Part shown: positions 12,270 through 62,789 of the stretch, in pieces
Layout of the letters: every line of letters begins with the position of its first letter
Position numbering within the stretch: position 1 is the stretch's first letter
Assembly: GCF_014805625.2 (NCBI RefSeq)
Contig: NW_023998432.1
Span: forward strand, 5,340,414 to 5,404,413
Direction: 5' to 3'
DNA length: 64,000 nucleotides
Origin: Glossina fuscipes
Taxonomy: Eukaryota > Arthropoda > Insecta > Diptera > Glossinidae
Notes under the pieces: generated by a model
What the model saw: the letters and a program-made list of their open reading frames with translations, nothing else
Databases searched by the model: none
What the model was told of the DNA's origin: nothing
Translations under genes and position numbers: made by a program

Positions 12270-12391
12270 CTGGTCTTAAGTATTATTATTATTATTTTAA
12301 TTTTAGACTAATGAAATGAATTCTTAGACTAAAAAAAAGACATTGAGCACTAGCAACACAGGCTATCGGCTCTAATTTAAATAAATGTACA

Positions 12392-15300
12392 TTAGATAAT
12401 AAGCTTAGTAGTATTAATAAAGTAAAATATTGAATTGATATTCTGTTCTGAAGCTGATTGTGGGATGTTCAAAGGGTTAATCATTCCAAATGCAATACTT
12501 CTAGCCGAGGAAAAGTTGAGGCAGTCGCAGAGAATGTGCTTTATAGTAAGAGTTTGTCCACAACAGCAGATTGGCTGAGAAGACTTCTTCAGGATCCATT
12601 GGTGAGTTGCAATTGTATAACCAAGATCCAACTTTTCCATGACATCATCCATAAATAGAGGACCAGAAGCAGCATACTTTGCCGCTTGATCAGCCTGCTC
12701 ATTTCCCAGTAAACCGATGTGACTTGGTACCCATAACATTTTAATTTTTCCGTCGTGTGTAGTAATTATATTCCTTAATTTGTTGATGGTGCTCCATCTC
12801 GAAGTCGAAGGGTTCCGGGTAGCTTGTAATACAGACAAACTGTCAGTAACAATGACGGTTTTGAGTTTGTTTTCATGGGCAAGGTTGGCAGCGTGAAGGA
12901 TAGCTCTGGCTTCCGTTGTGAAAGTTGAAGTACTTTCGTGAAATATGTGGTTGAGAAGAACCCGTCCTGTAGCATCTACCACCGCACAAGCAGGAGGCAG
13001 ACCAGGAGATTTTGAGCCGTCTGTGTACAAAAGATTCCAACCAGTACTGTCCAATACTTGGGTTTTTTCAGCTATTAAATTCCTGAAGACGTAATTTGGA
13101 ATATCTTCTTTCTTGTGCATAGACAGTGAGATGTCAAAAGAGCAGTCTTTCAAAATCCAGGGAGGTTTAACACCAAAAGAGCGGTATATTTTTAAGGGAA
13201 TGTTCAATTCCTTTGCGATGCACAAACAATGGTCAATTGCAGATGGTGACTTTGGAATTTTCTTCGCAATAATAATCTTTCTTATGTCATCACCGAGAAT
13301 GGATTTGTTTGAATTAAGAAGCTTAGGGACTATTTTAGCTTTTAACTCATACAGTCTATTTTCTAAGGTTGGGAGACCAGTTTCAATTATAATATTATTT
13401 ATGGGCGTCGTCCGAAAAGCATAACAACTTGCTCTAACGGCTTGGTGATAGACCGGTTTAAGGATGTTGATATTAGATTTGCAGCTATTGCCATAAATTA
13501 TCAAAGCATAGTCAATCTTGCTTAACACAAGCATTTTGGTAAGATAAGCGATAGTGTTAATATGCGCATGGCTTCTCCAAGCAACGTACTGTATGAAATT
13601 TACCCTTGTTAGAAGGGAGTTTTTTAACCGAAGGCAGTGTGCTTTCCAACGATAATTGTTTGAAAACGTGAGCCCGAGAACATGGAGCGTCTGCACATTT
13701 AGTAATGGTAAGTCGTTAATATGCATCAGTAGGTTTCCTGCATCGCACATTTGTTTTCGACAAATGTGCATTTTTTTTGATTTTTGTAAAGAGATTATAG
13801 CTCCTGACGAGTTTGCCCATGTGGAGATCTATCGTCCAATAGATTCGAGGATGTTGATTGCTTTCGTGTTGTCTTTTTCTTTTGTAAAAATGTATACATC
13901 GTCCGCGTAGAGACATTGTTCCACTCTTGGTACACGGCAAAGAATTTCGCTAACTTCGTTGAAAGCGATCTGGAAAAGCGTGACAGAGAGAGGAGATCCT
14001 TGCGGAATGCCATTCATTAGCGGAAAGGAATCAGAAAGATGATTGTTGATTCTAACTTTGAACCGCCGATGCGACATGAATGATTTGATGTAGTTGAAGA
14101 ATTTGAGTTCAACATTCCATGATTTCAAGAGTCTTAAGATAACATGAAGACCAACTCTGTCAAATGCTTTTTCGAAATCAATTGAGAGAATTGTTACGTG
14201 ATTTCGTTCGGAAATTGCTTTGCTTGTGAAATAATCAATATGTAACAGAGCGTCGATGCATCCTCTACCCCGCTTGAAACCAACTTGTTGCTTTGTTATC
14301 AGGTTCTTGGACTCAAGAAACCAAGATAATCTAGATGCCATAATCTTCTCTAATACCTTAGAGAGGCAAGGTAAAGAGAAATTGGGCGATAATCTGATGC
14401 GATGGAGACATTTTTTGACTTTGGAATTGGAACGACTGTTGCCAGTTTCCACATGTAGGGTATATGGCCAGTCATAAATACCGTATTATATAGGTCCAGT
14501 AATTTATTTTTACTAGACTTAGACATAGCACTGATCATTTGGTATGAGATGCGGTCTAGACCAGGTGTCTTCCCCTTCAAATTGGAGAGACAACTTCCAA
14601 GTTCTGAGGTAGATACGCAATTTTCCAGGAACATGGCACATCTATCGATATTATTTGAAAGAGATATTGGAGTCCTTTTATTTTCAATGAAAGCACTGGA
14701 GAAGTTGCTGTCAGAGGAGTATTCGCACCACACTTTTCCAAAGTAATTAGAAATCTCATCTGCGTCAGTTAAAGTTCGATTGGGAGTGCAGATGGCAGAA
14801 ATTTCGTTCAGGTTTGAAGTCCCATTAAGTCTGTTGACTTTGTGCCAGACAACTTTCATTGATGTATTTCTGTGAATTCCTCTCGAAAAAAGTTCAAAAT
14901 TAAGTGCCTTTGATTTTCGCAATTCCCTCCTGAATAGAGCATTGGCCTTTTTGTATAATAACAAGTGATTCTGATCAGGACATCTCTTAAAGCGGTGCCA
15001 TAGATCCATTTTAGTTTTCCTCAAAAACGAAAGCGTGTTGTTCCACCAAGGAACCCTAGCTCGTTTAAAAGAGGTATTGGATTGAGGAATAGAAAGATGA
15101 GCAGCCGTGCGAATCGCTTTAGACATAATAGCAGCATCATGGTTGCAGTTTCCGTTAAATGGCTTTGAATTCAAAAATGACTCCATTTGTTTGGAGTAAT
15201 TGATCCAATCCGCTTTATCTAGGAGGAATTTGACCTGTTTTGCTGGAGTAGAAGAGGACGTTGAAAGTTTAAGATCGATTATGATTGGAAAGTGATCACT

Positions 15301-15936
15301 ATTATGTAGATCATCAGAAATAGACCAGGACACCAAAGGAAGAAGTGATGGAGAGCAACATGTTAAATCAATATGTGAAAAAGTATGATGAGTTGAGAAG
15401 TGCGTTGGTTTTCCATCATTTAAAACGCAAAGGTTGCTTTGAAAAAAGGCCTTTTCTAAAACAGTACCGCGAGTGTTGTTCACTGTTGAGCCCCAGATGG
15501 TATTCCAGCTGTTGAAATCGCCGCATATAATTAATGGGGGGGAAAGTACGGAGAATAAACTGTAGAGTTCTTGCTGAGAAAACGATTGCGAAGGTGGAAT
15601 ATAGAGCGAAAGCACTGTAAATTTTATATTTAACATTATTTGTATCGCTACGGCTTGTATATTTGAGCTTAAATTTATGCGTTTGTGAGGTATACTTGAT
15701 TTTATAAAAACACCTACTCCTTGTTTGGAATATGAGTTTTGATCAGCATTTGTGAAGTATCCAGTATATGATTTGGGTGGAATAGGATTATAAGAGCTTC
15801 TACAATGGGTTTCTTGAAGCGATAAAAAGGTTGGATTAAAATCACTTATGAGTGTACGGAGTTCATCAAAATTATTAATAAGTCCCTTAATGTTCCATTG
15901 TAGAATTTTAAAAACTTTATTTAATTGTAATGACAT
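12392..15936 (-). pseudogene. LINE ORF2: endonuclease-reverse transcriptase-RNase H, one frameshift and one in-frame TAG
   Basis: From ATG 15936 the first segment carries the APE endonuclease: LQETH (E42), GVGVFIK, SLYIPP, GDFNSW (D140), SHIDLT and NSDHFP (D214). It runs into the reverse transcriptase fingers with KTPGLDRISYQM and SDYRPISL. One T is missing from a T run near 14380, by comparison with copy 2, and the frame then moves. The next segment has QVGFKRGRGC, IDFEKAFDRV, NGIPQGSPLS and the catalytic LYADDVYIF, and ends at TAG 13829-13831. The same frame resumes at once, through 19 codons before ATG 13771. It then carries RNase H: LLYTDGSK, TEARAIL, VIVTDSLS and WVPSHIGLLGNEQAD, followed by a cysteine/histidine cluster near the C terminus. 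The product would nick target DNA, prime on it and copy LINE RNA. Apart from the two lesions all catalytic residues are present. Confidence 0.92.
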
Positions 15937-15957
15937 GTAAGCAGGGTGGAGGGAGGG

Positions 15958-17430
15958 TTAAGTTGACATGTCAGCGTCTCCGTCGAGAAGGTCGCTATAG
16001 GAATTTTTCGTGAATGATTTATTCTTACCAGCAGAATAATCTGTATTTAGGTGATTTGGTGCATTTGAAGCGCAACAGGTTGGCGCACGTGAATAATTTG
16101 AAATTGAAGGTTGATTAATGGATGAAAGAATGGGTTCATTACCACTTGTGATTTGTTGAGTAAAGTTGATAGCTGGAGATTCTGGAGAATTTGGTATATT
16201 AGATTTTAGCATATGTATTGTTGTTTTAGTTTTTTCAATATTTGCAGTTGCTTTGGTTTTTGAAGGTTGATTAATGGATGAAAGAATGGATTCATTACCA
16301 CTTGTGATTTGTTGAGTAAAGTTAAGAGCTGAAGATTCTGGAGAATTTTGTATATTAGATTTTAGCATATGTGTTGTTGTTTTAATTTTTTCAATATTTG
16401 CAGTTGCTTTAGTTTTTTCAATATTATCTTTGGCAAGTGATGTAACTGGTTTCGCAATATAATTTTTGGTTAATGGTGGAACAGGTTTTTCATTGGAAGC
16501 AGTTGCAGTCAAAGTCTTACTAGGCTCGATTTGCGAGACAACAGCAGCATAGGTATTACTTTTGCCAATTCCATGGGCTACAGATGGATTTCTTTCCCGG
16601 TATGTGCGTCGCGCTTCGCCCATGCTACAGTAATTTTCTGTTTTGATTTTTAATATTTCGCGCATCTGTACAAAACGTGGGCATTGTTTGTCTAACGCAT
16701 TGCAATTTATGCAGAAACTACGGGTACAGCTTTCAGTATGTGGAGGATGACCACAGTTAGCACAAGATGCAGCATTAGTGCATCTTTTTGCCGTATGACC
16801 CAGGCGTTGGCAATTTTTACACCTCATAGGATTTGGGATGTATAGTTCTACTTTACATTTATACCACGCCACATCAACTGTTCGCGGTAATCGGTAGCGA
16901 TCAAAAGTTAAAATAATCCTTCCTGTAGGAGAGCGTGTTTTTCCGTCATCATTTAGTTTGGTGAATTTATATATTTCAGTCACTCCTTGATTGCCCATTT
17001 CGCGAACAATTTCATCTTCCGGCACATGCTTTAAGCAAGGGGCGTAAATTACGCCTCGAACCGAGTTAAGTTTCTCATGTAGTTTAGCTGAAATAGCACA
17101 TAGATTAGCTAAAGATTTGGCCTTTATGAGCTTTTCGGTTGCGCGCGGGTTCCCAGCGAGGACCAGTAAATTCCCATCGCGTAGAATCGAGATGGAGTCG
17201 ATGTATGTTGTAATGCTATCTAGAGTTTTTTTTATAGCAAACGGGCTAATTTGGGAAATTGTTATTCGAGCATCGGTTGAAGAAATAACAATATATTTTT
17301 TATCAATAGGGGTTATATCGGTGATTGGCAACAACGGAAAATCCGAATTTTTACTTTTTTTTCTTTGGGGGGATGTATCACTTAATAGATGAAATCTATT
17401 CGAGTTTTTGTCTGGCGGCCCCGGGGCCAT
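15958..17430 (-). CDS. LINE ORF1: gag-like RNA-binding protein with zinc knuckles
   Basis: An intact 490-residue frame from ATG 17430. A basic N-terminal tail is followed by a folded region (about 45-200) ending in VELYIPNPMRC. Zinc knuckles follow: C204-x2-C207-x4-H212-x4-C217, then C223-x2-C226-x4-H231-x3-C235, then a third cluster (C240, C243, C250) that lacks the usual histidine. The protein is expected to bind LINE RNA and package it into a ribonucleoprotein, as ORF1 of I-type elements does. Past the knuckles the chain is low-complexity and rich in S, T, N and K. It contains a 52-residue unit present twice in tandem (DNA period 156 bp, 16105-16260 and 16261-16416), each unit including MLKSNI and FTQQITSGNE. 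ORF2 starts 21 nt after the ORF1 stop, as usual for reinitiation-type LINE translation. The frame is intact although ORF2 is not. Confidence 0.88.
   Translation of the reverse strand: MAPGPPDKNSNRFHLLSDTSPQRKKSKNSDFPLLPITDITPIDKKYIVISSTDARITISQISPFAIKKTLDSITTYIDSISILRDGNLLVLAGNPRATEKLIKAKSLANLCAISAKLHEKLNSVRGVIYAPCLKHVPEDEIVREMGNQGVTEIYKFTKLNDDGKTRSPTGRIILTFDRYRLPRTVDVAWYKCKVELYIPNPMRCKNCQRLGHTAKRCTNAASCANCGHPPHTESCTRSFCINCNALDKQCPRFVQMREILKIKTENYCSMGEARRTYRERNPSVAHGIGKSNTYAAVVSQIEPSKTLTATASNEKPVPPLTKNYIAKPVTSLAKDNIEKTKATANIEKIKTTTHMLKSNIQNSPESSALNFTQQITSGNESILSSINQPSKTKATANIEKTKTTIHMLKSNIPNSPESPAINFTQQITSGNEPILSSINQPSISNYSRAPTCCASNAPNHLNTDYSAGKNKSFTKNSYSDLLDGDADMST
16105..16416 (-). repeat. 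156-bp tandem duplication inside LINE ORF1
   Basis: Two adjacent near-identical units with a period of 156 bp, each encoding 52 residues including FTQQITSGNE and SSINQPS. The period is a multiple of three, so the frame is kept. The units differ at only a few bases, so the duplication is fairly recent. Confidence 0.92.
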
Positions 17431-17971
17431 TACGCCTTATTGTTGTCTATTGCTTATTATTTGTGAAATAACCACTCACTTCAAAAGGTTTGGAAAACTA
17501 CTGAATAAAAAGTCAGATGTTTTTAATTTTTTTTTTTTTTTTTTTTAATGTATTTAAAGGAAAACACGTACGATATCCGCGATGAACACTTTTCGCAATA
17601 AACACACAGAAAGTTCAATAGATTATAATAAGTTTGAGAACTTTTAAATATGTATAACGCAATAAAGAAATTAAATTGCAAAAATTTTTCCACAAAGAGA
17701 AAAATGTGACCACAGCGCTTGAACAGAGTTGCCGATTGCTGGTCTTAAGTAATATTTTCCAAATGACTCTATAACGTTCATTGAGAAAAAGCAGGAAAGA
17801 ATGTTTTTGTGCCACCGCCAGCAAGAAAAAGTGAAAACCAGTTCGAACGATATATCAATTTGACATCATGTATTACCCTACATGCGGTATATTCTAAATT
17901 CCAAATCATTATTTTATACCATTCAGAGTTGCAGTTGTACAAACTAAAGGCATAACATATTCTGAATGATA

Positions 17972-19123
17972 TTAGTTTGGGGAAAAAAATCCATTATTTT
18001 TATATGAACTTCAGGACTTTATTTAACATGCTTCGGATTGACCGATTTGGGTCAAATATGCACCGTTATGTTGTATGATAGAAGTCCTGGTCTCTATTTG
18101 CAAAAAACTCTAGTAGTCGATTTTCACAATCCTCCCTAGATTCCAATTTTTTATCATTAAAGAAATTTTGCAATGCAAGAAAAAGATGATAATCGCTTGG
18201 TGCCAAGTCCGGACTGTATGGCGGATGCATTAAAACTTCCCAACCAAGCTCCCGAAGTTTCTGGCGAGTCACTGTAGATGTGTGTGGCCTAGCGTTGTCC
18301 TGGTGGAACACGACACCTCTCCTGTTGGCCAATTCTGGCCGTTTCTGGTCAATCGCTATCTTCAAACGGTCCAGTTGTTGACAGTAGAGATCAGAATTCA
18401 GCGTTTGGCCATATGGAAGCAACTCATAATAAATAATCCCCTTCCAGTCCCACCAAATGCATAGCAAATCCCATTTCTCATCTCCAGTCACCATCCGTTT
18501 AAGAAATGGGTCTATCTCATTCCGTTTGGCCAAGGCTTCGTAGATGAAAATTCGATCCATCATGTTTTTTTCTGTTAATTGGTGTGGCACCCAAACATCG
18601 AGCTTCTTTTTGAATCCAGCTTTGTGTAAATGGTTTAAAACTGTTTTATGGTCGATTTTTAGCTCCTGGGCGATGTTACGACTGCTAACATGCCGGTCAA
18701 CTTCGATCATTTCTCCGATTTTATCGACGTTTTCGACGACCGGCCTACCTGTGCGAGGTGCATCTTTAACATCAAAAATTCCTGAACGGAATCTACGAAA
18801 CCAAAATTGCACATAATTGGCTGTTACAGTAACGGAACCATAAACACCATTCACAATTTTAGCCGCCTGGCTTGCATTTTCGCCTTTGTCAAAGAAAAAC
18901 TGTAAAATGTACCGAATTTTCTCTTTGTTCACTTCCATTTTTAACACGCCGTAACTCACAACTGAATGCACCAAACAAAAAACAGCAAAAGAATTTTTTT
19001 TACTGCGAAATGTCACCTTTCCAACGAGCATAAAAATGAAATTGTTTGATCGATACTTTACGAGAAATCTATCAGTGCAGCCATCTACCGAAAAAATAAT
19101 GGATTTCTTTTTCTCCAAACTAA
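17972..19123 (-). mobile_element. mariner element with intact ends and internal deletions
   Basis: The element is bounded by TA at 17970-17971 and 19124-19125, the usual mariner target. Its inverted repeats of about 30 bp start TTAGTTTGG and contain AAATCCATTATTTTT. The right-hand repeat has two extra bases in the A/G run. The transposase gene lies between them on the minus strand. At 1152 bp it is shorter than a typical element of about 1.3 kb, matching the two deletions seen in the gene. It cannot move by itself but could in principle be moved by a related active transposase, because both ends are present. Confidence 0.93.
18066..18938 (-). pseudogene. mariner transposase with internal deletion and lost C terminus
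   Basis: The start ATG at 18938 opens MEVNKEKIRYIL. The open frame extends upstream of it, but that part overlaps the 5' inverted repeat and is not transposase-like. Present in order are the helix-turn-helix region (FFFDKGENASQAAK and FRRFRSGIFDVKD), the linker WVPHQLTEKN (116-125), the first catalytic Asp in VTGDEKW (D153), the second in HQDNARPH (D214) and the third in YSPDLAPSDYHLF (D249). There are 34 residues between the last two, the D,D34D signature of mariner. Only 60 residues separate D153 from D214, where the family has about 90. TGDEKW is joined directly to LLCIWWDW, so roughly a hundred bases are lost in frame. After DQDFYH a second, frameshifting deletion removes most of the C-terminal tail; NGAYLTQIG is still readable in another frame. 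The protein should be inactive. Confidence 0.93.
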
Positions 19124-19125
19124 TA

Positions 19126-19880
19126 TTATGTTTATTTGTATTTCTAAAAGATTCGCTTTGTCGATGATTGGGCGCTCCCTTCAACCGGCTGCGTCAAGTA
19201 TTATAACTAAAAGCTAGCCAATCTGCGGTCATAATTAAGGAAAAAGGGAGAGTGAAATTGCAAGGGACGTCTTTCAATTAGAACATAAGAAGGAGTGCTG
19301 ACGTAATTCATTTATACCGAAAAATAACATCTTTGACAATAAACACAAAATATTGGAATAACAACAGGAAGCTCTGTCTCTGTCCTTTATTTTGTGTTCC
19401 CGGTCCAACGTTTCACTGGAATAGAACTGTGCCATGTCAGCGTACGACTACGTGAAATTGTGTGTTTTTTTACGGGTTGTCTCTCATATTTTTTAATTGG
19501 TTCCACAGTCTGAATTGTGAATTTGCAATAGCATAGGGTCTATTTACAAAGTTAAAGCCTCTTATATATATATGTAGAAAATTTTTTATAAAGCTACATA
19601 AAGTTGTTTCTAATAATATTTACCCCGCATAGTCGGGTAGATAAGAGCCGTGAGTACCGATGATTTAAATGTGCGTGCCATCTGACCATTCTTGGTTGTA
19701 CCTACATAACATAATATGTGCTCAGCCGGTAAGGGCATAACACTGATTATGAACATATTCAGTAAGCTATGATCTCACCCTATCTCTTCCCGCCTTTACC
19801 CGCTTTTTTCTCACCATCACTATGTTACATATATAGAAGAGGACCTTCTGGATGATTGGTCATATTAAAACTACAAAAAA
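19126..19880. other. intergenic stretch after mariner
   Basis: I see no gene or recognisable element here, apart from a short TA run near 19563-19573. Confidence 0.55.
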
Positions 19881-20034
19881 AAGTAAGTTAGGAAGTTATG
19901 TTCGGCTGGGCCCGAATCTCGCAAATCGACCATCGTTAGAATCTTTAGGGCCAATGCTTTTATTTGTCGTTATAAAAAAATTAATATCATAAAATTTATC
20001 TTCCACCTTTTAGTTCGCTGAAATATATTGTTCA
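19881..20034 (+). repeat. probable 5' end of an old interspersed repeat, with TTCGG...CCGAA hairpin
   Basis: After an A-rich run and AAGTAAGTTAGGAAG there is a small hairpin (stem TTCGG 19901-19905, CCGAA 19912-19916). The same arrangement recurs at 48520-48565. Fly genomes contain abundant repeats with a TTCGG...CCGAA hairpin near the start. I infer an old copy of such a family, possibly Helitron/DINE-like, but the family is not proven. Confidence 0.4.
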
Positions 20035-20345
20035 CAAAAAAGTAATCCTCCACGCCGTGACGTCCATCATAATTAATTTAGAATTAACACACTCGGCTTG
20101 GCGCATTTTACTCTTCAAGCCTTTTTATATGATACATATAATGGTTAGTGTTGTGGTCAAAAAAATAATCCACTACGCCGTGACGTTCGCGGTACTGAAC
20201 TAACACACTTAACTTGTTGCATTCTAGTCTCCAAGTCCGTTTATTTGACACCCATATCGATGGCATTGTTAAGAAAAAATTCATCCGCCACGTCGCGGTG
20301 TTCACAATATTTATTTTAATATAGAATTAACGCATTTTTAGGCAG
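20035..20345 (+). repeat. three diverged tandem units of about 120 bp
   Basis: The motif AAAAAA...TCC.CCACGCCGTGACGT starts near 20035 and 20158, and a weaker version (CCGCCACGTCGCGGTG) starts near 20273. Each unit then carries an AT-rich middle with GAATTAACACAC or CTAACACAC, and the first two add a CTTG...GCAT...TCTxCAAG segment. The spacing between units is about 123 and 115 bp. The third unit is truncated. The units are too diverged to be recent. The block directly follows the hairpin repeat and may be the internal tandem array of the same element. Confidence 0.65.
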
Positions 20346-32939: not shown

Positions 32940-33115
32940 TTATTATTATTATTATTATTAATTTCGCCAGAGAAATAAATTCTAAGACTAAGCTGTTAAA
33001 AGCACTAGCATCTAAGGCTATCGGCTTTTATTAAAAACTCTACTGCACTTGAGATTCGAACCCACGACCATTGACTTGCTAGTCGAGATTCCTCGCCTTC
33101 GGCTATTCAGGCGGA
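32940..33115 (-). mobile_element. tRNA-derived SINE, copy 2
   Basis: The minus-strand element starts TCCGCCTGAATAGCCGAAGG. It has an A-box-like TAGCCGAAGG and a strong B box, GGTTCGAATCTC, then a 3' half with AGCCGATAGCCT, TGCTAGTGCT and TTAGTCTTAGAATTTATTTC, and ends in TAA/AAT repeats. The target-site duplication TGCAATTCTTA is perfect at 32929-32939 and 33116-33126. RNA polymerase III would be expected to start near the tRNA-like head. The 3' half is shared with the LINE 3' ends at 12283-12380 and 39520-39620. It inserted about 60 bp downstream of the stop of the small ORF at 33190-33390, in the same orientation. Confidence 0.92.
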
Positions 33116-36690: not shown

Positions 36691-39620
36691 TCTACATAAT
36701 AGTGATCACTTTCCAATCAAAATCGATCTTAAACTTTCATTGTCCTCTGTTAGTCCAGCAAAAAAGCGCAAATTCCTCCTAGATAAAGCGAATTGGATCA
36801 ATTACTCCAAACAGGCCGAGTCATTTCTGAATTCAAAGTCATTTAACGGGAACTGCAACCATGATGCTGCTATTATGACTAAAACGATTCGCACGGCTGC
36901 TCATCTTTCTATTCCTCAATCTAATAGCTCTTTTAAACGAGCTATGGTTCCTTGGTGGAACAACACGGTTTCGTTTTTGAGGAAATATAAAATGCATCTA
37001 TGGCACCGCTTTAAGAGATGTCCTGATCATGATCATTTGTTATTAAACAAAAAGGCCAATGCTCTATTCAGGAGGGAATTGCGAAAATCAGAGGCACTTA
37101 ATTTTGAACTTTTTTCGAGAGGAATTCACAGGAAAAAAATTAATGAAAGTTGTCTGGAACAAAATCAACAGACTCGATGGGACTTCAAACTTGAACGAAA
37201 TTTCTTTCATCTGCACTCCCAATGGAACTGACGCACACGATATTTCTAATTACTTTGGACAAATGCGGTGCGAATACTCCTCTGACAGCAACTTTTCCAG
37301 TGCTTTCATCGCAAATAAAAGGACTCCAATTATTCTTTCAAATTTTATTGACAGATGTGCCACCTTCCTAGAAAATTGCATATCTACCTTAGAACTTGAA
37401 AGTTGTCTCTCCAAATCGAAGGGGAGGACACCTGGTCTAGACGGCATCTCCTACCAAATGATCAGTGCGCTGTCTAATTCAAGTAAAAAGAAATTGCTGG
37501 ACCTATATAATAAGGTATTTTTGACTGGCCATATACCCTACATGTGGAAACTGGCAGCAATTGTTCCAATTCCAAGGTCTAAAAATGTCTCCATCGCATC
37601 GGATTATCGCCCAATCTCTCTTTTATCTTGCTTCTCAAAGGTATTGGAATAGATTATGGAATCTAGATTATCTTGGTTTCTTGAGTCCAAGAACCTGATA
37701 ACAAAGCAACAAGTTAGTTTCAAGCAGGGTAGAGGGTGCATCGACGCTCTGTTACATATTGATTATTTTACAAGCAAAACAATTTCCGAACGAAATCACG
37801 TAACAATTCTCTTAATTGATTTCGAAAAAGCATTTGAGAGAGTTGGTCTTCATTTTATTTTAAAACTCTTGAAATTATGGAACTTTGGACCCAAATTCTT
37901 CAACTACATCAAATCATTCATGTCGCATCGGTGGTTTAAAGTTAGAATCAACAATCATCTCTCTGATTCCTTTCCGCTAATGAATGGCATTCCGCAAGGA
38001 TCTCCTCTCTCTGACATGCTTTTTCAGATCGCCTTCAACGAAATTAGCAAAATTCTTTGCCGTGTACAGAGAACTGAACACTGTCTCTACGCGGATTATG
38101 TATACATTTTAACAAAAGAAACAGATAGCACGAAGGCAATCAACATCCTCGAATCTATTGGACGATAGATCTCCGCATGGGCAAACTCGTCAGGGGCTAA
38201 AATATCAATACAAAAATCTAAAAAAATGCACATTTATCGAAAGCAGATATGCGGCGCAGGAAATCTACTGATGCATATTCATTACTTACCAGAACTAAAG
38301 GTGCAAACGCAGCATATTCTCGGGCTCACGTTTTCCAACAAATATCGTTGGAAAGCACACTGTCTTTGGTTAAAAAATTCTATTTTAACAAGGGTGAATT
38401 TCATGCAGTACGTTGCTTGGAGAAGCCATGCGCATATTAACACTATCGCTTATCTTACCAAAATGCTTGTGTTAAGCAAGATTGACTGTGCTTTGATAAT
38501 TTATGGCAATAGTTGCAAATCTAATATCAACATCCTTAAACCGCTCTATCACCAAGCCGTCAGAGCTAGTTGTTATGCTTTTCGGACGACGCCCATAAAT
38601 AATATTATAATTGAAACTCGTCTCCCAACCTTAGAAAATAGACTGTATGAGTTAAAAGCTAAAATAGTCCCCATTGTTTGTACGTCGCAAAGGAATTGAA
38701 TATTTCCTTAAAAATTTTCCGCTCTTTTGCTGTCAAGCCTCCATGGTTTTTGGAAGACTGCTCTTTTGACATCTCGTTGTCTATGGACAAGAAAGAAGGT
38801 ACTCCAAATTAAGTTTTCAGGAATCTAATAGCTGAAAAAACCTAAGCATTGGAGAGTACTGGTTGGAATCTTTTCTACACAGACGGCTCAAAATCTCCTG
38901 GTCTGCCTCCTGCTTGTGCGGTGGTAGATGCTACAGGACAGGTTCTTCTCAATCACATATTTCACGAAAGTACTTCAACGTTCAGAACCGAAGCAAGAAC
39001 TATTCTTCACGCTGCGAACCTTGCCCATTAAAGCAAACTCAAAACCGTCATTGTTACCGACACTTTGTCTGTATAACAAGCTATTCGGAACCCTTCGACT
39101 TCGAGATTGAGCACCATCAACAAATTAAGAAATATAATTACTGCACCCGACGGAAAAATTAAAATGTTATGGGTACCAAGTCACATCGGTTTATTGGGAA
39201 ATGAGCAGGCTGATCGAGCGGCAAAGTATGCTGCTTCTGGTCCTCTATTTATGGATGATGTCATGGAAAAGTTGGATCTTGGATATACAATCGCAACTCA
39301 CCAATGGATCTTGTAGAAGTCTTCCTCCCCAATCTGCAGTTGTGGACAAACTCTTACTATCAAGCACATTCTCTGCGACTGCCTTAACTTTTCCTAGAAG
39401 TATTGCATTTGGAACGACTAACCCTGTGGACATTCTAAAATCAGCTTCAGAACCGAATATAAATTCAATATATTACTTTATTAATACTACTAAGCTCATT
39501 ATCTAATGTAAATTTATTTATATTAGAGCCGATAGCCTGTGCTGCTAGTGCTCAATGTCTTTTTTTTTTAGTCTAAGAATTTATTTCATTAGTTTAAAAT
39601 TATAATAATAATAACAATAA
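36691..39620 (+). mobile_element. 5'-truncated second copy of the I-clade LINE
   Basis: The copy is closely related to the LINE at 12283-17738 but on the plus strand, starting inside the end of the endonuclease (NSDHFPI region). It runs through reverse transcriptase, RNase H, the 3' UTR and a TAA-type tail. A perfect 10-bp duplication, TATATTTCTG, flanks it at 36681-36690 and 39621-39630, so the truncation happened at insertion, as is usual for LINEs. Length is 2.93 kb. Confidence 0.94.
36692..39506 (+). pseudogene. truncated and broken ORF2 (reverse transcriptase and RNase H) of the second LINE copy
   Basis: The frame opens inside the endonuclease at NSDHFPIKIDL. Readable blocks are RVPWWNN-like APWWNN, GRTPGLDGISYQM, SDYRPISLLSCFSKVLE (then TAG near 37650), QGRGCIDALLH, IDFEKAFERV, NGIPQGSPLS and LYADYVYIL. 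The core YADD has become YADY and AFD has become AFE. TAG at 38166-38168 sits at the same codon as in the first copy. RNase H blocks follow: LFYTDGSK, TEARTILH, VIVTDTLS and WVPSHIGLLGNEQAD, with several stops. A frameshift near 37130 lies in an A run. It is dead, but it preserves the T that the first copy lost near 14380. Comparing the two copies separates shared from private lesions. Confidence 0.92.
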
Positions 39621-52734: not shown

Positions 52735-52777
<43 letters not shown>

Positions 52778-52787: not shown

Positions 52788-52954
52788 GTTTTATCTATAT
52801 TATTATTTTCTTTTCATCGTGACATCGTGAGTATATACGATATCTCAAAGTTATCGGATGCATCAGCAGTTTCAGTCAGGACAATAATTGAAATGTAACA
52901 TATTAATCATCTTTCCGGAGAAATAGAATACTATTTATTTAAAAATGGTATTTT

Positions 52955-52956
52955 GA

Positions 52957-52989
<33 letters not shown>
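52955..52989. repeat. TA run followed by T run
   Basis: About 18 bases of TA followed by about 17 T. In the minus orientation the A run directly follows the 3' end of the R1/LOA-like LINE fragment at 52990-53690, so it may be that element's poly-A tail. Confidence 0.7.
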
Positions 52990-53690
52990 CTTCACAGGGA
53001 GGGCAGCCGTTTTGGCGCTATTTAAGAGTCTATGTTGACGTTCGTCGTTTCTTTGTTTTCCCATTCTGTTCGCGGCGAACATCATATTTTCAGATCGTGC
53101 AAAATAATTGTCACAATTTTGTCGGGGAGAGGGCACTTTCCGATTTCAGTCTGTAGCCTTGATCGTTCGTTATGATATTTTGGACAGACGAAGAACATGT
53201 GTGCTACTCTATTTTAGACCTATGTAATTGTGCTCTAAAACAACCATTGCCGGTTAATAATTGTGTTAAGCAAAAATCAACCTCACCATGCTGCCTAGTG
53301 ACCCAGGGCCGCAGATCTGGGATGAGCCAGTGCGTCCGGTATCTTTGCTCGCCATGCTCCAGCGCTCCTGCCAATCTTTCGTCAGCCGGCGTTTTCCTCA
53401 TTGCTTGGCCGCACCTGCCGGTTAGTTATGAAGTTCAGCTCTATATTTGCCTTATTTAGCCCAAAGGTCGAATTGATCATCAAAAACCAGTGCCGTATCT
53501 TCCGACACCGAACGATATGCGTTGCAAACCCTTAGAGCATAGAGCCAGTATGCTGTTTGGATGCCTCGTGTATATGACGGTACATCGAGCACCCACACGG
53601 AAGAGCCATACAGCGTACTGCCATCAGTTTTTCACGCTCTTGCCTAGCGCCGCGCAATTTTCGTAGTAACCACGCCAGCGGCTGTGCTAC
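52990..53690 (-). pseudogene. R1/LOA-like LINE ORF2 C-terminal fragment
   Basis: Minus-strand frames read TLYGSSVWVLDVPSYTRGIQ, YALRVCNAYRSVSEDTA and then THWLIPDLRPWVTRQHGEVD, with FCLTQLLTGNGCFRAQLHR. These match the conserved order after reverse transcriptase in R1/LOA-type LINEs (LLYGAPVWA, RVCSAYRTVS, LIPD...W..R.HGE, LTQ.L.GHG.F..YLHR). After LHRSKIE there is a stop and a frame change, with remnants of the C-terminal CCHC region. The sequence is markedly GC-rich relative to the surroundings. It ends at a run of A in the element's sense, like a tail, so it is probably a 5'-truncated insertion, now dead. It may or may not be the same family as the fragments at 25.9-28.45 kb, with which it does not overlap. 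Confidence 0.82.
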
Positions 53691-56600
53691 CTAGGCTAGT
53701 TGCATTTTTTCTAAATATTTGTTCTAAGTATTTTTTCACATTCTTTGAAAATTTGACGAGTTGCATATTATACGTTCAATATTTTTCATATCCATCGTCC
53801 TCATAATATTGAATACATCAATCCATATCGGAACATCCGATATATCTGTTACAACAGTAAGCCCTTAAAAAATCGTTTTTCTTTTTTTATTACCTTTTAT
53901 TTTCAGTTTAATTGAATTTTATAACTCCTCTCATGTCCAATTAGCATCAGACGTTGGTCAGTCAATCTTTTTGTATATTCGGGCAGCAGAAACAGCAGCA
54001 GGTTGAATTTGAAACCAGTATTTAACGTTTTAACATTTCATGGTATGCAGTTAAAGAAAAACCTTCGTTTTCATTAAATCAAATCAAAAAATCCAACACA
54101 TCAAATCACCAACAGACAACAAAGCCAAAAAGTTACATTCAACCAACTTTAAAGAACAGTCAAAAAGCATATCATGAATGAATGAATGGATAACAACGTA
54201 ACCACGTACATACTTACGATACGAATGACTGACTGACAGAATCATATTATTAAAATTAAAACTGAAGTGCACGCAAGCAAAGCTTGTTATTAAAGTTAAA
54301 GAAAATCAAAAAGAAAAAAATGCGCAAAACCTTTTTATAATGAAAAGAAATTCTATAGGCAGAGGAGGTAAACGAATCAAATTGCAAAAAAAAAAAAAAA
54401 AAAAACAGAAAAAAAGACATTCTGTATGTTTTGTGCGCCTGTAATTAGGCACACTTGTGTGGCAGCCAGATGTCATATATAAATATACATTTGTACCCAT
54501 CGCAGAAGAATTTAAAGTACTCTAAATGCATCATTTCCTATGCAACGCCCAACAATAAGAACGAGAGATTCTGCAAAGTAGAAGCATCTTTGTTCAACAA
54601 ATCGATTGAAGTTTATCAGTATGTTCATCCGTCCATACATCCAATGGTTTTTAGCCATGTCCAAGTTGCACAGGCCATGTATATTCTCTGTCTTCCTTCT
54701 TCCACTTGTCGTGCGTGTTCGTCCATTAAATCAAAAGCTAAAACTTGGCTCAAGCACTCTTGGTTCAGTGGTGTAGATTTAATCCAGAAACTAAATCCAG
54801 CCGTGAATTTGCAACTTTAGAAGAAACCGTACTGTAAATAACTTACAAGGCGTATCGGGTATCCTGAGTTGAAACTTAACTCAAGATTTTGTAAGCTCTA
54901 CTTAAGGCACCTTGCGAACGACCAGTTAACTTGTCTTGTATTCATATAATGGGTCCATAAAATTCGCCTCCAGGCAAGTATGGTCTTCTCCTTTGCCTGT
55001 AATATAAAAACAAAAATTTTTCTAAGTTGTGCCAGCAATGATTTTATGGTTTGTATGAGACTTTGCTCTATCAAAAAATGTAATGACGTGAATGATAGCT
55101 GTGCTCATACATACATTTAAGGATTTACGAAATAATATAGTATTTGAAAGCATATACCGTAAACTTAGTCTAAATAAACGAATTTTTAAGTACATAATTC
55201 TTTGCAAGGAATGCATAAAATTTCTTATCTTTTATACATTTCGGTTTATGACTTTCGTAACGGGTTATGTCAATATGGTCTCCTTTACTTAGCTACACAG
55301 TCCTCGATGAATATAACAATTAAGTTCTGAAAATTAACCTAATTAATTTTTAACGTACTCTATTTCGCAAAGAGAAAACTCACAAGATAATGATCTGGAT
55401 TTGAGTGGTTTAGATAAATATCTAATTGCGATGTTTATGTGTTTGTCGGTAATGATCCGAAATCTCCTTCAAGATGAACATAGCTTCCTTTCCTATTGCT
55501 TCTTATAATTTCTCTATTTCTATCTTGTTTATAGCCTACTCCGAGCTTTACGTATTATTTCTATTATATGTTATGTCTCTATCGTTAAGCAATTTGTTTT
55601 TTACTATGAGAGGTAGAAGTTTCTTGTGTGAAAATTCAAGGGTATTTTTGGGCGTTTTTGAATGTAAAGTAAATAATTAATGAAATAAAAATAATAATTA
55701 ATAGTCAAACATTCTCCAATAGTCATTGGATCTGAACCAAGTTTAAACACAAATTGCAGTCTTTAAGCGACTCTCTAAGTTCGACGATTTTAGCAATTGC
55801 TCTTTAAAAAAAATCCCAAACTATTATCGGATACGTTTATATAGCTGTATCGCCAATTATCTGAAATGATGTACAATAACTGATGATCAATAGCGATGGG
55901 TGAGCTCTAAGACACTTGCAAAGCAGAACTGTTTTCCTACAATTGACTTTGCAATTTGCATAGAAAGTTGACCATCTTTAACCGGTCGATTGCAGGTCGA
56001 AAATGGTTTTTTTTATTCATTATGTACAATATGTACATTGAAGGAATTCCAATATCCTTTTCTTTCTTTGTCCTTATAATGGTATATAATTAAACAAATA
56101 TTTATTATTATTAGCGTATAAATAGTTCATTTATATTTACTCTTCTTATGAGAAAAGTAAACTTCAATTCCTACATCAAGCAAAAGAATAATGTGTTATC
56201 ACTGCCTCTTTCGGTTAATCCATTTTATATCCCACACCATTTATATAATAAAAACCAGAGAGTACGGATTATGTTACGATTACCTGGATATGTTTATAAT
56301 CCTAAGAATGATATCCGATGCATCCATCTTTTATTATACCGATCGACTCAAAATCGTGTCCTTGATTGATTTGGGCTTGTGTGTCCACTCGTCTAATGTC
56401 CTTTGGCATAATTTTTTTTCAACCTACAGGTCACAATATTTGAGATATTTTGGCGAACATTATTGTTTTCCTCCATGATAATGTTACGATTGCTTCCCAT
56501 ATAAAATCTAACAAAAATTGTTCTAATTTAATCAAATCTTAAAATTTTCTTCTTAACACTTGCATCTACATCTACTAACTTCAAGTTTACAGAGTTTGCA

Positions 56601-57545
56601 AATTATAGGCATTTAAATGATTTCGACAACATTTTATTTTTATTAGAATGAAACAATAAAGAATTGCAAGACTGTCCTTTATAATAATGAGATGTTTATG
56701 CTGAATTTTTAAAGTTGTGTTTTAACTAATAAAATTTTTTCCGCCGGTTTTATTGTTTATCTCAGAGATAAAATTATATTGCGAATTATTAATTGGTTTC
56801 TAAACGTCTCTTATTAATGAAACTTAATATTCATGAAGCGGTGCATGCGATCTTTACCATTGTTTACGATATGATGAAAATTTTCAATTAAAATACATTG
56901 TATTTTATGGGATATACCTAAAAAATGTTAAGACTATTTTTAATGAACTGCGTAATTGATAAGTTTTCAGAACTTCACGTGTTTAACTAATATTTGTTCA
57001 AACTTCAATGAAAACGGCGATGTAATGAAATAACTTCAATTAATGAACTAATAAAACAGTACGATATCACAATTTGTTTTCTTCATTCTCCGAGAGGTCA
57101 TATCGAGGAAACGTTCCTGTTGTTGCTCATTTTAAGTTAGGGAAACCATTAAGCATATTTCACCTCTTGTCTCAATAGCTATCTGTCTATCAATCTCAAG
57201 GTGAAAGAAATCGTCTTATTTGGCTAATAACTTTTTGTTAGAAGGGCAGTGCACCATCCAATATATAAGATTATGTCCAATATATAAAGTTTCTTAGCCA
57301 GAAATATCAAAAATGAAAATAACGATGTTTTTTGAGCAAAATTGAGCACATTTCTGGAGTTTAATATAATATAAGTTAAATATAATAAACATACATTTTT
57401 ACGCAAATATTAGACGTTTATTAAACATCAATTTAAATTCAATTCATTACTATGCGTTGTCGAGTTTTGTACACAGAAAAAGAATTTGTTCTCACAAACC
57501 GCAAAAAAAACACAAATCGAAATAAACATATCTGAAAACTACACA
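53691..57545. other. AT-rich intergenic stretch
   Basis: I see no gene I can support. An A run lies at 54387-54404 and other AT simple sequence is scattered. Short frames (54455-54820, 55474-55680) have no recognisable domain. Confidence 0.55.
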
Positions 57546-57546
57546 C

Positions 57547-57562
57547 TCGAACCTAGGTTCGA
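57547..57562. other. 16-bp perfect palindrome
   Basis: TCGAACCTAGGTTCGA is a perfect inverted repeat with no spacer, in AT-rich sequence. It could be a binding site for a dimeric factor or chance. Confidence 0.6.
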
Positions 57563-59459
57563 TTTTTAATTTTATGATTAACTACCTTAAACAAAATTTT
57601 TAAAGTTTAAGTAAACTTGGTGAATAAAATAAATTCCAAAAATTTAAAAGTCTTCTAAACTTAGAGCGTTTAAATTTTGTGTATTTTGTATTATAAAATA
57701 GATGTAGTTACCATCACCTTTCTTTTCAGTGTTAACTCTCTTTATGCACGTGCTTTGTTTTGCTGGATCAAACGATTAAAGTATAATGCTGAACGCCATT
57801 CTGGCTGCAAATGCATGAAACAATTTCAATCCAATAATAGAAATAGAATAAAAGGATATTAAAAAATTGACTTTTGCCCAAGAAGAGTGGTATTACGAAC
57901 CATGGCGCAGTGCGTAACTTAGCACTTCTAAACTTCATGACTCTTCTTAATCGGTCACCCAAATTTTTGAAATTTCAAAGTTGAAGCCTAAATTAGAAAG
58001 ATAAATAAAGCAAAAGTAGCCCTTAAGACAAGATGAACGAAGATGATATGCAACGACTTACGTTAGACTGTTAATGATGGCTGGTATTTATAAACTTTGG
58101 GCCATTCTCCGAAACCAGGCATGTCTGCTAAATCCTTATGACAAATTTGAAGTACTGATCTGACTTCAATAAGATGACGCAATATCCGAGACTTCGTAGC
58201 TGTGTTTTTAAAATGCACCGAGCCATCGTTTTCATCTGACCATGAATGCTAGAATGCTTCACGTTCCCAAACTATTTATTAAACAGTACGCGATCGGATA
58301 TTAATTTTTGCGTTTGATATTTGTTAATAGTTTTTATTCTTTCTCTGCCTTTTTTATCCTCTTTCTCCATCGCCCTTTCTCTTTCCCACTCCCTATACCA
58401 CTCTTAGTTTTATTCTCTTCCTCTGACGATCTTTGTTTCTCACATTTTCCCACACGATAAAAGTCTTACATATGTTCTTCATATTCTTTCGTAGCAATTC
58501 TATGTTTGATTTTTTTTTTTTTTTCATCTTAATTCGGAACTAGGTAAACGAACATTACAGTACTTCATATTTAATTAATAATTAATATTTACTATGCGCT
58601 CTGCCTTTAATAAATAATTTAATACATATATGTTAACGTTTTTTGCTTATGTTTTTTGAATTTTATTCACATTCATGCATATATTTTATATAAATTACTG
58701 GCGGAGAACTCATAAACTCCCAATATTGGCGTAATAATGATAGCAATGCTCTCGTTGATGCAATTTTTGTTGATTTACTCGTCTTTACTCGTTTGTTATG
58801 CTTTTTTCAAAGTTAATCTTCTTTTTACCCTTAAAGAGGAGATCGTTTGCTCCTTTCCTACAAATGATGTTTAAGCCTGCAAGAGCGCACAAGCGTTCCT
58901 TTCAAGTGTAATGTCTTTAAGTGAGTTTTAAAGATAATTTTCAGAAATTAGTATACGTTCCGTATGCATAACAGAAATTTATGAGGTTTAAAAAAAGACA
59001 TTTGTAAGGAAATTCTTTTGCTTCTTGTGGTATTAAATCGATAAATTTATACACAAATAAATTTTAGTTGTCAGCTGAAACATTTTTGCTTGAGCAAACT
59101 AAAATTCTTAATAAAGTTACATTCTTTGAGCAATAAAAAAGTATTGCCCATATGTCTTGCTATTTTGCTTAGCGGTTACGCATGGTATTTATTTCGTTAA
59201 GTTTCTCCTGACAGCAATGTATCCCGTATCTGCAGCTGAGTTTTTTTGATGCCACTTGTCACTTAGTGAGCGTGCACGTAATGTCTTGTAAGAGTCATAA
59301 AACTAAATGTATGGTTATTCTTGTCGCCGATACGCACATGACATGCGTAACATGATTTTATGGGCCAAACAATAATCGCATACTTTACTTACAATGCCAA
59401 GCTTATAACTGCATAGCTGTCAGCCATGAACAGCAACATCATCATTGTCAACGTCGCAA
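57563..59459. other. AT-rich intergenic stretch
   Basis: I see nothing I can support, apart from CTTT-rich and T-rich patches near 58320-58530. Confidence 0.55.
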
Positions 59460-59463
59460 GCAT

Positions 59464-59534
59464 GATCATCACAATCACAATCAGTATCACCATCGCCGTC
59501 ACTATCGCCATCGCCATCGCCATCATCGCCATCA
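59464..59534 (+). repeat. CATCGC-type hexamer minisatellite
   Basis: Imperfect units of ATCACA and then CATCGC repeat for about 70 bp, becoming more regular toward the right-hand end. The unit length is six, which would keep a frame, but no long open frame uses it. Confidence 0.85.
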
Positions 59535-60852
59535 GAAAGACTGTTTTGAATATTAACTCAAATTAAACGCACAAGACAAGTTTAATTAGTTTTGTTCGGC
59601 AGTTCATGTTGATAAGAACAAGATTTCTGTTATTGATTTCCACTGATTGCTTTTAGCTGCTGCTGCGTTTGCCTTCGCCGTTAGTGCTGTTGTTCCAGTT
59701 AATGGTTATGAATTTTTATCACTTTAGGTGTCTTTGACATAGACAACAAAATATCAAATCGTATATTTTATTACTACCGTTTATTCGTAAAGTTGTTTCT
59801 ATAAAAAAGTCACTTCAACATAAAATTGTTAAAATATTATATTATTTATTACTCATGCAATTTACGTACACTGTACATCAATGGGAATATATGTACATTA
59901 GTTTGACATGAACGTGTTCTCCTATGTGCAAATAGAGGTAGCGTCAGAATCGCCTGAAATATTTTCGACGATTTATTGGTTTTGATTCTTAGAGATGCAT
60001 TTCAGTGAAGTCACAGAGGCATGGTCTGTAATTTCCATTCGCAGCCAAAATTTAGACAGACTATCGCAGAACCCATTATTTTCAATCCAGTTTCCTGTGA
60101 TTAATGCAAATGTGAACTCATTTGGCATAAAATATATTATTTACTATTATTTCGATAAACAAAACCAAGTCATATAAAGTGATATCAATTGCCTATGCGA
60201 GGTGTAAGAAGTGATTTAAAAATATCTTTCGCAGAGTCTTTTTAATCACACAAAAGCAACCGTCTAATTGGCCAACTACAGCTAATAACGGCCGGATCAA
60301 GCCTTTTCGAAGAATATCAGCTCGCGTGTTTTTTTTACCAAGTTTTGTCTTGTGACGAAGAATTCTTAATCTGCTGCGAAGGCAGTCGACAAAGATTTGT
60401 GCGCACTTCTAACGCACCAGCACAAGGAAATCGAAGAATAGGTTGCAATAAAAACTGTTGGGAGATTCTAAAGCTGTTTTTTATTTTGCGCTATGACAAA
60501 AATCCCGACTGTCAATTTTGATGTTTATTGAAGTAGAAAAATTCGCGAATTTAAAAGACGTATTTTGTATCGTAATAAGGTAAGGTTCTTCGTAATTCAT
60601 GCACACCTGACCTGCTTGATTGATTGTCATTTTCTTTGGAACTTGCACAACTCTACGAAAGTACACGTTTTCATATATAAATGAGGAAGCAAACCCACAA
60701 AAATTCGGTGATTCACAATTTTTTTTTGAGAGACTATAAAAGATGTTCGCACGATATAAAAAAACACAATATCCACATAAAAATGAGAAAATAAATAAAC
60801 AGGAAAATTATATTTGACTTTTCCAGTTTCTTTTTCACACTCGCTTCAGCTT
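59535..60852. other. AT-rich intergenic stretch
   Basis: I see no gene or element I can support. Confidence 0.55.
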
Positions 60853-61059
60853 TTAAAAACCCTTTGCTCCACAAAATTCGATTGACGGGGTCGATTTTAT
60901 CCACTTTTCTTCTGTAGCCTTACCCATAGTATGTAAATGTATAATATCCTTTCTTTTAACATTAGGAAAAAAACAGTCTACGTTGTGCGATAGGCGCGTC
61001 TTTTGACCGATTTGCCTTTTTTTAAAAATCTGTCTACAAGAACATTCAAGGTGGTTTCT

Positions 61060-61190
61060 AAATATGAAGCGGATGTCGTAATTTTTCCGAGCGATAAGTA
61101 GACCACCACCACACAGATAGAGGGACGAGCCGGCAGACATGCCTAAATCCGTTCGGAAGGTGATACTGTTCAAGAACGTATTATATTCAT
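61060..61190 (-). pseudogene. possible LINE endonuclease scrap
   Basis: One minus frame reads NSITFRTDLGM, then SLYLCGGGLLIARKN. Endonucleases of CR1/Jockey-like LINEs have the order FR.DR...GGGVLIA at this spacing. Nothing else of an element is readable on either side, and the frame continues with unrelated sequence, so this could be chance. Confidence 0.3.
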
Positions 61191-62605
61191 AAAATATACT
61201 TACTTTAAGTTCCTTCCTTTTGGACTTTGCAGAGACTTATGTTAATGAGAAACTTTTCTGCAATAAGACATTTTCCATTTGAATAAAGAAGATAAAGATT
61301 AAGATAAATTAAAAAAAAAAAATTTTTAATTCTAAAAATTACAAACGATACATAAAAAATATTTTGTAGCAGAAGGACTTGATATGGACATTATGATATC
61401 TCATAACGATTATTTTGTTGAATCACGATCATTTCTGATGCAATTTGAACTCATCTGTGTGGCTCAATTCATCTACCCTCCGAAACCCGTTTATGCATTT
61501 TTGTGCTTAAGCTACAGGCCGCAGTTTTTGAGGTACTACAACGAAATTTAGCATACTGATTTGCTTTTTCTCAGGGATCAACCCTAATTAAATTGAATTG
61601 AATCGAGCGATTTTTACGATCATTCCTTATTTTGAAAGGTCGTCATAGGAACAAAATTGTTAATTTTCATAATTTCTTGCCAAAACTCGACCGGCTAAGT
61701 TCATGTATAACATTTTTAACAGATGCTACAAATTTTGAACCAATTTGCATATAATCGGTTTTGCGAAAAGTAAACTTTTGCATTGTAAAAAGGTGAAGTT
61801 TTTAGTAACTTGTGGTGAAAATACCCTTTGTTGAAAGAGCTTTTATCACAAAATATAAAATTCTTTTTGCTATTGTGAGGAAAATAGACTTACATGGTCC
61901 AATTTTGTTAATGCCAATTCTTATGTCAAATTTCTGTTATGAAATAGATACCATCGAGAAATACTAAAGATTATCTCTTTTCATCAAATCACAGGTCTCC
62001 TTTTCCGCTTCCAAAAGTAAAAAAATGAAGTCCGTTATTACAGATCACCGAAAAGTCATCACCTTGGAGTCATTTTCAAGATGAAGTTGGTTAGTGCAGA
62101 ATATTCGCCCATAGTCGAAATAATTTTCTTACTTATTTTACTCGTCTGATTTTCTTTTTTAGTTGTTGTGTAAAATTATCTTGTATACAGAAATGTTATA
62201 ATAAAAGAAATTCTTTGTGACCTGCTCAACACATTCATTCACTTCCGTGCTACTTTCTGAATCAATCTAATCTTGTCTGTCCGTCTCGTTTTCTTCAGTT
62301 AACCATTAGGCTGCTGTTTTTGAATTATTTTGATAAAATATAACGCCTTGTTTTGTAACGTCGTTTTTACGTATAATTAACTATATTAAGTGAAGCGGTG
62401 AAGGCCAACTATAGCATTTTCACTTGGTTTTTAAACATTTTATGTAGAAAACTGTTTTCTTTCATCCGTACAATTTTTTGCAACTAATTAAAATCAAAAG
62501 TTCATGGCATTCTTTGCATACAATTTAAACTGACTTTTCTCATGTGTTCTATTTATTTACTTAATTAAATTCCGCTAAAGAACAAGTCATTACCCGAATG
62601 TGAGG
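61191..62605. other. AT-rich intergenic stretch
   Basis: I see no gene I can support. The stretch at about 61440-61700 has a less AT-rich, repeat-like feel but no recognisable motif. Confidence 0.5.
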
Positions 62606-62619
62606 TACAAAATAACCTA

Positions 62620-62789
62620 TTATTATTATTATTAATTTCGCCACAGAAATAAATGCTAAGACTAAACTCTTAAAAGCACTAGCATCTAAGGCTATCGGCT
62701 TTTATTAAAAACTCTACAGCACTTGAGATTCGAACCCACGACCATTGACTTGCTAGTCGGGATTCCTCCCCTTCGGCTACTCAGGCGGA
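62620..62789 (-). mobile_element. tRNA-derived SINE, copy 3
   Basis: The minus-strand element starts TCCGCCTGAGTAGCCGAAGG. It has the A-box-like TAGCCGAAGG and the B box GGTTCGAATCTC, then the shared 3' half (AGCCGATAGCCT, TGCTAGTGCT, TTAGTCTTAGCATTTATTTC) and a tail of TAA/AAT repeats. A perfect 14-bp target-site duplication, TACAAAATAACCTA, lies at 62606-62619 and 62790-62803. It is very close in sequence to copy 2. It sits directly beside the 3' side of the LINE remnant at the right edge. Confidence 0.93.

Follow-up and report, generated by a model that had tools for sequence, protein, structure and literature searches.

Here we ask whether the 3′ half of a tsetse SINE is the 3′ end of a LINE lying in the same window (the whole 64,000-nt stretch of Glossina fuscipes DNA analysed here), and whether that LINE could supply the enzyme that copies the SINE. 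Three SINE copies lie on the reverse strand, at 1855..2022 (copy 1, target site duplication (TSD) AATAATATGT), 32940..33115 (copy 2, TSD TAAGAATTGCA) and 62620..62789 (copy 3, TSD TAGGTTATTTTGTA). Copy 1, whose ends were taken from the sequence by reading, consists of a tRNA-like head, a LINE-type tail and a TAA run; it has an older head type and a decayed hairpin, and its identity to the other two copies is 84-85%. The range originally given to the SINE/LINE pair, 12283..62789, holds SINE copies 2 and 3 and both LINEs and leaves copy 1 outside. The exact SINE core occurs 767 times in the 366-Mb genome, and the family shows the interspersion, high copy number, TSDs and 3′ simple-repeat tail of a SINE. 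In the head, TGGCCGAGTAGG and GGTTCGAATCT may represent the A box and the B box of a pol III promoter, respectively, as judged by their fit to the consensus. ARAGORN found no tRNA in the SINE at default settings and a weak tRNA-??? match at a relaxed score, and since the Rfam tRNA model did not match the SINE, no isoacceptor was assigned. Pattern scans of viral contigs and genome contigs and a blastn search against phages gave no match to the element, as expected for one that is fly-borne. A literature search for a tsetse SINE yielded only a statement, in the accessible part of PMC6721284, that SINEs are 'very scarce' in the tsetse genome.

The three SINEs and the two LINE copies have in common a 3′ domain of ~70 nt followed by a TAA tail. 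Taken alone, the blocks within this domain are only mildly enriched in the window: GCCGATAGCCT was found at 11 places with at most two mismatches (shuffle mean 4.9), and TGCTAGTGCT at 8 places with at most one (shuffle mean 2.45). The two blocks adjoin at five places only, namely 1907-1931 (-, SINE copy 1), 12346-12370 (-, LINE copy 1), 33001-33025 (-, SINE copy 2), 39528-39552 (+, LINE copy 2) and 62675-62699 (-, SINE copy 3), and at all five they are followed by a TTAGTCT..AATTTATT-type block and then a TAA run; the block variants quoted for copy 1 in the initial annotation are present as described. When the SINEs without their tails were compared with the LINEs, the best match was the LINE 3′ end in 6/6 comparisons, with scores of 39-48 against 26-30 for the remaining window on both strands. 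The similarity persisted between consensus ends built from genome copies, again without the tail, which aligned with a score of 51, while the maximum among 20,000 dinucleotide shuffles was 36 and none reached 51. It could be argued that the likeness arose by chance or convergence, or that the LINE gained its end from the SINE, given that the single blocks are only mildly enriched and that A+T-rich sequence outside the LINE ends yields matches scoring as high as 30; the shuffling result speaks against chance, and we hold this reading as a whole to be very improbable. Judged by these alignments, the 3′ half of the SINE and the end of the window's LINE family on that side are homologous, genome copies included, as had been proposed, and the two elements have the common 3′-end sequence within one genome that characterizes SINE/LINE partners.

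The common end is also predicted to form an RNA stem-loop in both elements. The hairpin lies at 12345..12372 (-) in LINE copy 1 (GAGC-CGA-TAGC-CTGTGTT-GCTA-GT-GCTC), at 32998..33029 (-) in SINE copy 2 (AAAAGC-CGA-TAGC-CTTAGAT-GCTA-GT-GCTTTT), at 39526..39553 (+) in LINE copy 2 (loop CTGTGCT) and at 62672..62703 (-) in SINE copy 3. The inner stem is identical in SINE and LINE, the 7-nt loop has diverged, and two outer pairs are changed on both sides: pair -2/25 is A-U in 30/30 SINE and G-C in 30/30 LINE loci, and pair -4/27 is A-U in 30/30 SINE and U-A in 27/30 LINE loci. These two double changes, which are compensatory as expected of a stem-loop kept in common by partners, count as a single contrast between two families. 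The hairpin pairs are intact in 29-30 of the 30 SINE loci L001-L030 and in 28-30 of the 30 LINE loci, save for pair -3/26, which is A.A and intact in none of the LINE loci. The outer pairs are less complete in L031-L080 (33/50 for -3/26 and 32/50 for -4/27), because tail-only copies lack those letters. The significance of the folding energy is mixed: 4/200 shuffles were as good as the SINE hairpin (z -2.62) and 7/200 as good as the whole LINE 3′ end, while the energy was not significant for the LINE hairpin alone (30/200) or the whole SINE 3′ end (22/200).

The element behind classical hybrid dysgenesis in Drosophila is an I-type LINE, and ORF2 of the Drosophila I factor has an RNase H. LINE copy 1 (12283..17738, -) is full length at 5456 nt and is flanked by a perfect 13-nt TSD (12270-12282 and 17739-17751). 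Its ORF1 (15958..17436, -) is an open frame of 492 aa with CCHC-type zinc knuckles recognized by eye and without a Pfam match at 1e-3. The N-terminal part of ORF2 (14350..15957, -) encodes an APE-type endonuclease (PF14529, PF03372), the reverse transcriptase (RT) follows at 13829..14485 (-; PF00078) and terminates at an in-frame TAG (13829-13831), and the C-terminal part (12392..13828, -) encodes an RNase H (PF00075) from which a 159-nt segment, or 53 residues, is missing. Thus two ORFs, with an endonuclease, RT and RNase H in ORF2, can be recognized in broken frames, and a TAA-repeat tail is present. On these domains and this tail, and not from a tree, the LINE is assigned to the I clade; many of its close protein matches are unnamed, and some bear a jockey or X-element name. 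The pairing of an I-clade LINE with a TAA tail had been regarded as unusual; however, the I element itself ends in TAA and such tails are typical of I elements according to the accessible text of PMC3747384.

LINE copy 2 (36691..39620, +; TSD TATATTTCTG) is 5′-truncated and 91.7% identical to copy 1. It carries an in-frame TAG (38166-38168) between RT and RNase H, as in copy 1, and the identical 159-nt deletion, beyond which a further ~93 nt are deleted. Among the sequences read, the exact 159-nt deletion occurs in these two copies only; the segment has exactly that length in 15/30 sampled LINE copies, with 8 of other lengths and 5 not typable. The best match spanned the whole C-terminal part in five sequences, of which four carry 2-4 stops and the fifth, LINE copy 1, is the one short of 53 residues, and no intact LINE copy was seen among the sampled sequences. 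Conserved recoding at this TAG was considered and rejected, since 17/19 aligned protein hits have an ordinary residue there and the other two (P0121 and P0003) have no letter at this position, and 30 genome loci gave 10 GAG, 3 TAG (one being LINE copy 2) and 17 not typable. Divergence from the LINE consensus was 3-6% in 14/31 sequences and 9-45% in the remainder, partly because flanks of truncated copies entered the comparison. SINE copy 3 was 98-100% identical to 40 scored genome matches, so that the SINE looks younger than the LINE, with both samples biased toward best matches. The initial annotation held that the likely enzyme source was visible in the window; this fails, as both LINEs are broken.

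Given that the hairpin and the repeat tail are common to both elements, the SINE probably borrows the LINE's copying enzyme. The explanation that we favor, with fair confidence, is a tsetse SINE with a tRNA-like head and a tail homologous to an I-type LINE, with the SINE RNA copied by an ORF2 protein that this LINE family, or a closely related sister, encodes. This protein would bind the hairpin and use the TAA repeats as the starting point for target-primed reverse transcription, so that the SINE RNA would be copied in trans; the two dead LINE copies of the window would not be its source. Loops in the 30 sampled LINE copies were CTGTGCT (22), CTGTGTT (5) or other (3), and the SINE loop CTTAGAT was found in none, so that the tail may derive from a sister LINE; partnership with the LINE family here stands by its 3′ homology and similar hairpin and is weakened by the absence of this loop. 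Both tail donor and driver might be a sister LINE of I type whose loop reads CTTAGAT and which is rare, lost or unsampled, with the window LINE as its cousin, a tentative reading that we hold at somewhat below even chances and that overlaps with the favored one, because the latter allows a close sister. It would account for the consistent differences in loop and outer stem and for the older, broken look of the sampled LINEs, and SINE families with similar tails have been active at different times, as stated in the accessible part of PMC7245038. However, besides its absence from the 30 LINE loci, no such LINE was found behind the SINE-type tails of L001-L080, a sample partly tested by the C-terminal protein alone. 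This protein matched only in L034, far from the tail, and in L065, where the tail is inserted within a LINE copy; in L062 the tail comes after another LINE's own TAA tail.

We know of no SINE partner of the Drosophila I factor. The tsetse pair is a further example of a known relationship, and the view that I-type SINE partners are unusual is contradicted by precedents. In Table 1 of PMC3747384, Gecko of Aedes aegypti, paired with an I-clade LINE (MosquI, I-74_AAe), was the only I-tailed SINE found (58 SINEs per its text); it resembles the tsetse SINE in its tRNA head, fly host and I-type LINE tail, a likeness by listing and not by sequence, and is another family in another species. SINE3-1_TC of Tribolium castaneum is also a precedent, although it is classed as SINE3 and the tsetse SINE has a tRNA-like head. 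The eel UnaSINE/UnaL2 pair likewise has a common 3′ end and a short tandem-repeat tail, whose use is experimentally supported (accessible part of PMC3747384), but it belongs to the L2 clade with TGTAA repeats, and the tsetse pair is known from sequence alone. The Drosophila I factor resembles the tsetse LINE at the level of tail type, TAA (PMC3747384).

Tail-only SINE copies are an unusual and new addition to this relationship. Among 100 off-consensus sites listed, 44 have no SINE head in the 14 printed letters, and 40 of these 44 have at most three SINE letters upstream of one position, the hairpin base. Of 32 loci read as tail-only, 22 are flanked by target duplications 10 nt or longer; on closer inspection one of the 32 (L067) has a decayed SINE head, and in another (L079) an older SINE immediately precedes the tail. 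This bears on whether the enzyme might read the TAA repeats only, with the hairpin as a passenger from the LINE ancestor. Both elements end in TAA runs, and a title cited by PMC3747384 names UAA repeats as essential for precise initiation in the Drosophila I factor; however, loop and flanks have diverged around a conserved inner stem, and tail-only copies start at the hairpin base, so that we find this reading unlikely. Equally doubtful is that the hairpin and TAA repeats of the ~70-nt tail form a minimal retroposon in their own right, released by excision or made as a distinct transcript and able to move without a head; the SINE would then be a composite of this unit and a tRNA-like one that brings a TAA run of its own. 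Head and tail of the SINE meet at a TAA/A-run junction that varies between copies. Some copies stop at the hairpin's 5′ base and are tail-only, which would be due either to cutting of the RNA at this point or to A/T microhomology through which the cDNA end is joined to target DNA. The young-looking SINE may offer a natural set of RNAs accepted by the enzyme, in which the conserved stem, the altered loop and the tail-only copies point to the part that is recognized, and 3′-end recognition by I-type enzymes becomes directly testable.

Two short 3′ blocks lie side by side at exactly five places in the window, and, read outward, these proved to be three SINEs, one full-length LINE and one 5′-truncated LINE. 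Target-site duplications of 10-14 nt flank each of the SINEs (SINE1, 1855-2022; SINE2, 32940-33115; SINE3, 62620-62789; all on the minus strand), while LINE1 (12283-17738, minus strand) carries a perfect 13-nt duplication and LINE2 (36691-39620, plus strand) a 10-nt one. The initial annotation proposed that the SINE 3′ half matches the LINE 3′ end, and this was borne out, as all six SINE-LINE alignments placed their best score (39-48) at the LINE 3′ end, compared with at most 30 in the rest of the window. The assembly (366 Mb, 709 contigs), in which the window occupies bases 5340414-5404413 of contig C384, was then searched. SINE3 returned 40 scored matches at 98-100% identity (1966 first-look candidates), and an exact 20-nt SINE core occurred 767 times (383+384 by strand; control 0). 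The similarity persisted between the genome-derived SINE and LINE consensus sequences, whose alignment, tail excluded, has 59 identical positions, 13 mismatches and 8 gap letters; none of 20,000 shuffles reached the score of 51 (maximum 36). These results show that the shared 3′ end is real and that the core reading is correct at the family level.

We found no earlier description of the tsetse SINE in the literature searched, with Repbase and SINEBase outside that search, and PMC6721284 calls SINEs 'very scarce' across six Glossina genomes. The pairing of an I-clade partner with a TAA tail had been considered unusual, a view that does not hold: PMC3747384 counts 58 SINEs with a LINE tail and gives an I tail for Gecko of Aedes aegypti, and PMC7245038 states that SINE3-1_TC seems to be mobilised by the I clade. 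The tsetse pair is a further case of an already known relationship.

Both 3′ ends were predicted to form two successive hairpins, in line with the shared RNA stem-loop that the initial annotation suggested looking for, and the inner stem of hairpin 1 (TAGC/GCTA) is identical in SINE and LINE. The SINE loop reads CTTAGAT in 80/80 SINE-type loci, 50 of which were picked by a pattern fixing the loop and 30 by similarity; the LINE loop is CTGTGCT in 22, CTGTGTT in 5 and otherwise in 3 of 30 loci. The outer pairs are A-U in the SINE at -2/25, -3/26 and -4/27, and G-C, a mismatch and U-A, respectively, in the LINE. These changes support the structure but do not prove it, because they represent a single contrast between two families. 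Folding energy gave mixed support, with z -2.62 for the SINE hairpin (4/200 shuffles equally good), -1.99 for the whole LINE 3′ end (7/200), -1.27 for the whole SINE 3′ end (22/200) and -1.14 for the LINE hairpin alone (30/200).

The SINE head resembles a decayed tRNA and occurs in two types, one short and one longer with a better A box (judged against the A-box consensus). The longer type was seen in four genome loci (L036, L044, L049 and L050), and SINE1 has a decayed version of it. Runs of A or TAA of variable length stand at the head-tail junction in these four loci and in L031 and L037. Since such runs separate head and tail, we suggest that the SINE arose by joining two TAA-tailed units, a tRNA-like one and the tail.

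The aspect most worth following is the tail-only copies. A pattern for the SINE core preceded by non-SINE sequence, viewed over 14 nt, matched 114 genome places (50+64 by strand; control 0), of which 100 were sorted into analyst-set classes by these 14 letters. Forty-five are SINEs whose head-tail junction has either gained A or TAA units or undergone a deletion; 11 had A-rich runs there, and the three inspected (L031, L036, L037) were headed, the L037 head being shortened; 44 had no head within the 14 letters. Before AGCC, at the hairpin base, these 44 retain 0 (4 places), 1 (24), 2 (9), 3 (3) or 4, 6, 7 and 8 (one each) SINE letters. We read 32 of them, 12 from L031-L060 and 20 chosen by the analyst from the list. 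A search of 140 nt upstream revealed a head in two: L067, a decayed SINE, and L079, where an older SINE immediately precedes the tail. Target duplications of 10 nt or more, with their ends 0-4 nt from AGCC, were present in 22/32, and duplications of 8-9 nt in four (ending 11 nt away in L056); six had no convincing duplication. The upstream flank is the same in L045 and L046. At L065 the tail interrupts a LINE copy: LINE coding sequence lies on both sides of the insertion. Because of the duplications, the head search and the L065 insertion, we conclude that tail-only insertions, as defined by the 14-nt upstream view, are genuine retroposition products starting at the hairpin base. L062 is a tail-only copy directly after a LINE's TAA tail.

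A probable route is that SINE RNA would be transcribed by pol III, its 3′ hairpin would be bound by an I-type ORF2 protein, and the TAA repeats would prime at a nicked target, a priming mode indicated for the I factor by the title of a work cited in PMC3747384. The cDNA would then either reach the SINE 5′ end or halt at the hairpin base.

The LINE ORF2 carries endonuclease, RT and RNase H domains (Pfam), and CCHC-type knuckles were seen by eye in ORF1. The best named database matches for the LINE proteins came from the tsetse fly Glossina fuscipes fuscipes, at 91% identity across 39% of one query and 85% across 66% of another. The proposal that the enzyme source is visible in the window failed, as both LINEs are defective, having in common an in-frame TAG that separates RT from RNase H (13829-13831 in LINE1, 38166-38168 in LINE2) and a 159-nt deletion (near 12620 and near 39280). 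LINE2 has an additional loss of ~93 nt, also present in the LINE copies L093 and L101. Residues 1-509 of the C-terminal protein were fully spanned by the best match in five sequences; L088, L089, L093 and L103 each have 2-4 stops there, and LINE1 has none but lacks 53 residues. Several shorter LINE copies are free of stops in the retained part. At the TAG site, typed in 13/30 genome loci, 10 carry GAG and three TAG, LINE2 itself being one.

LINE1 and LINE2 are inverted, with TAG sites ~24 kb apart, and differ by K2P 0.088, with divergence highest at third codon positions. When a tree was built from the final 1.7 kb, LINE1 grouped with L102 and L088, which have GAG and retain the 159-nt segment; LINE2 joined the two TAG copies L093 and L101. 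One explanation for the shared TAG and deletion despite this split is gene conversion between LINE1 and LINE2. With LINE2 as query, 8/40 scored LINE matches, LINE2 included, fell on its own contig, C384 (8.4 Mb of the 366-Mb assembly); a local subfamily may lie behind this, or a chromosome rich in repeats. LINE1 ORF1 contains a 156-nt tandem duplication (16104-16417; 52 codons, 94% matching), and a mariner-type transposase fragment (18066-19193, minus strand; PF01359 and PF17906) lies just past the LINE1 5′ end.
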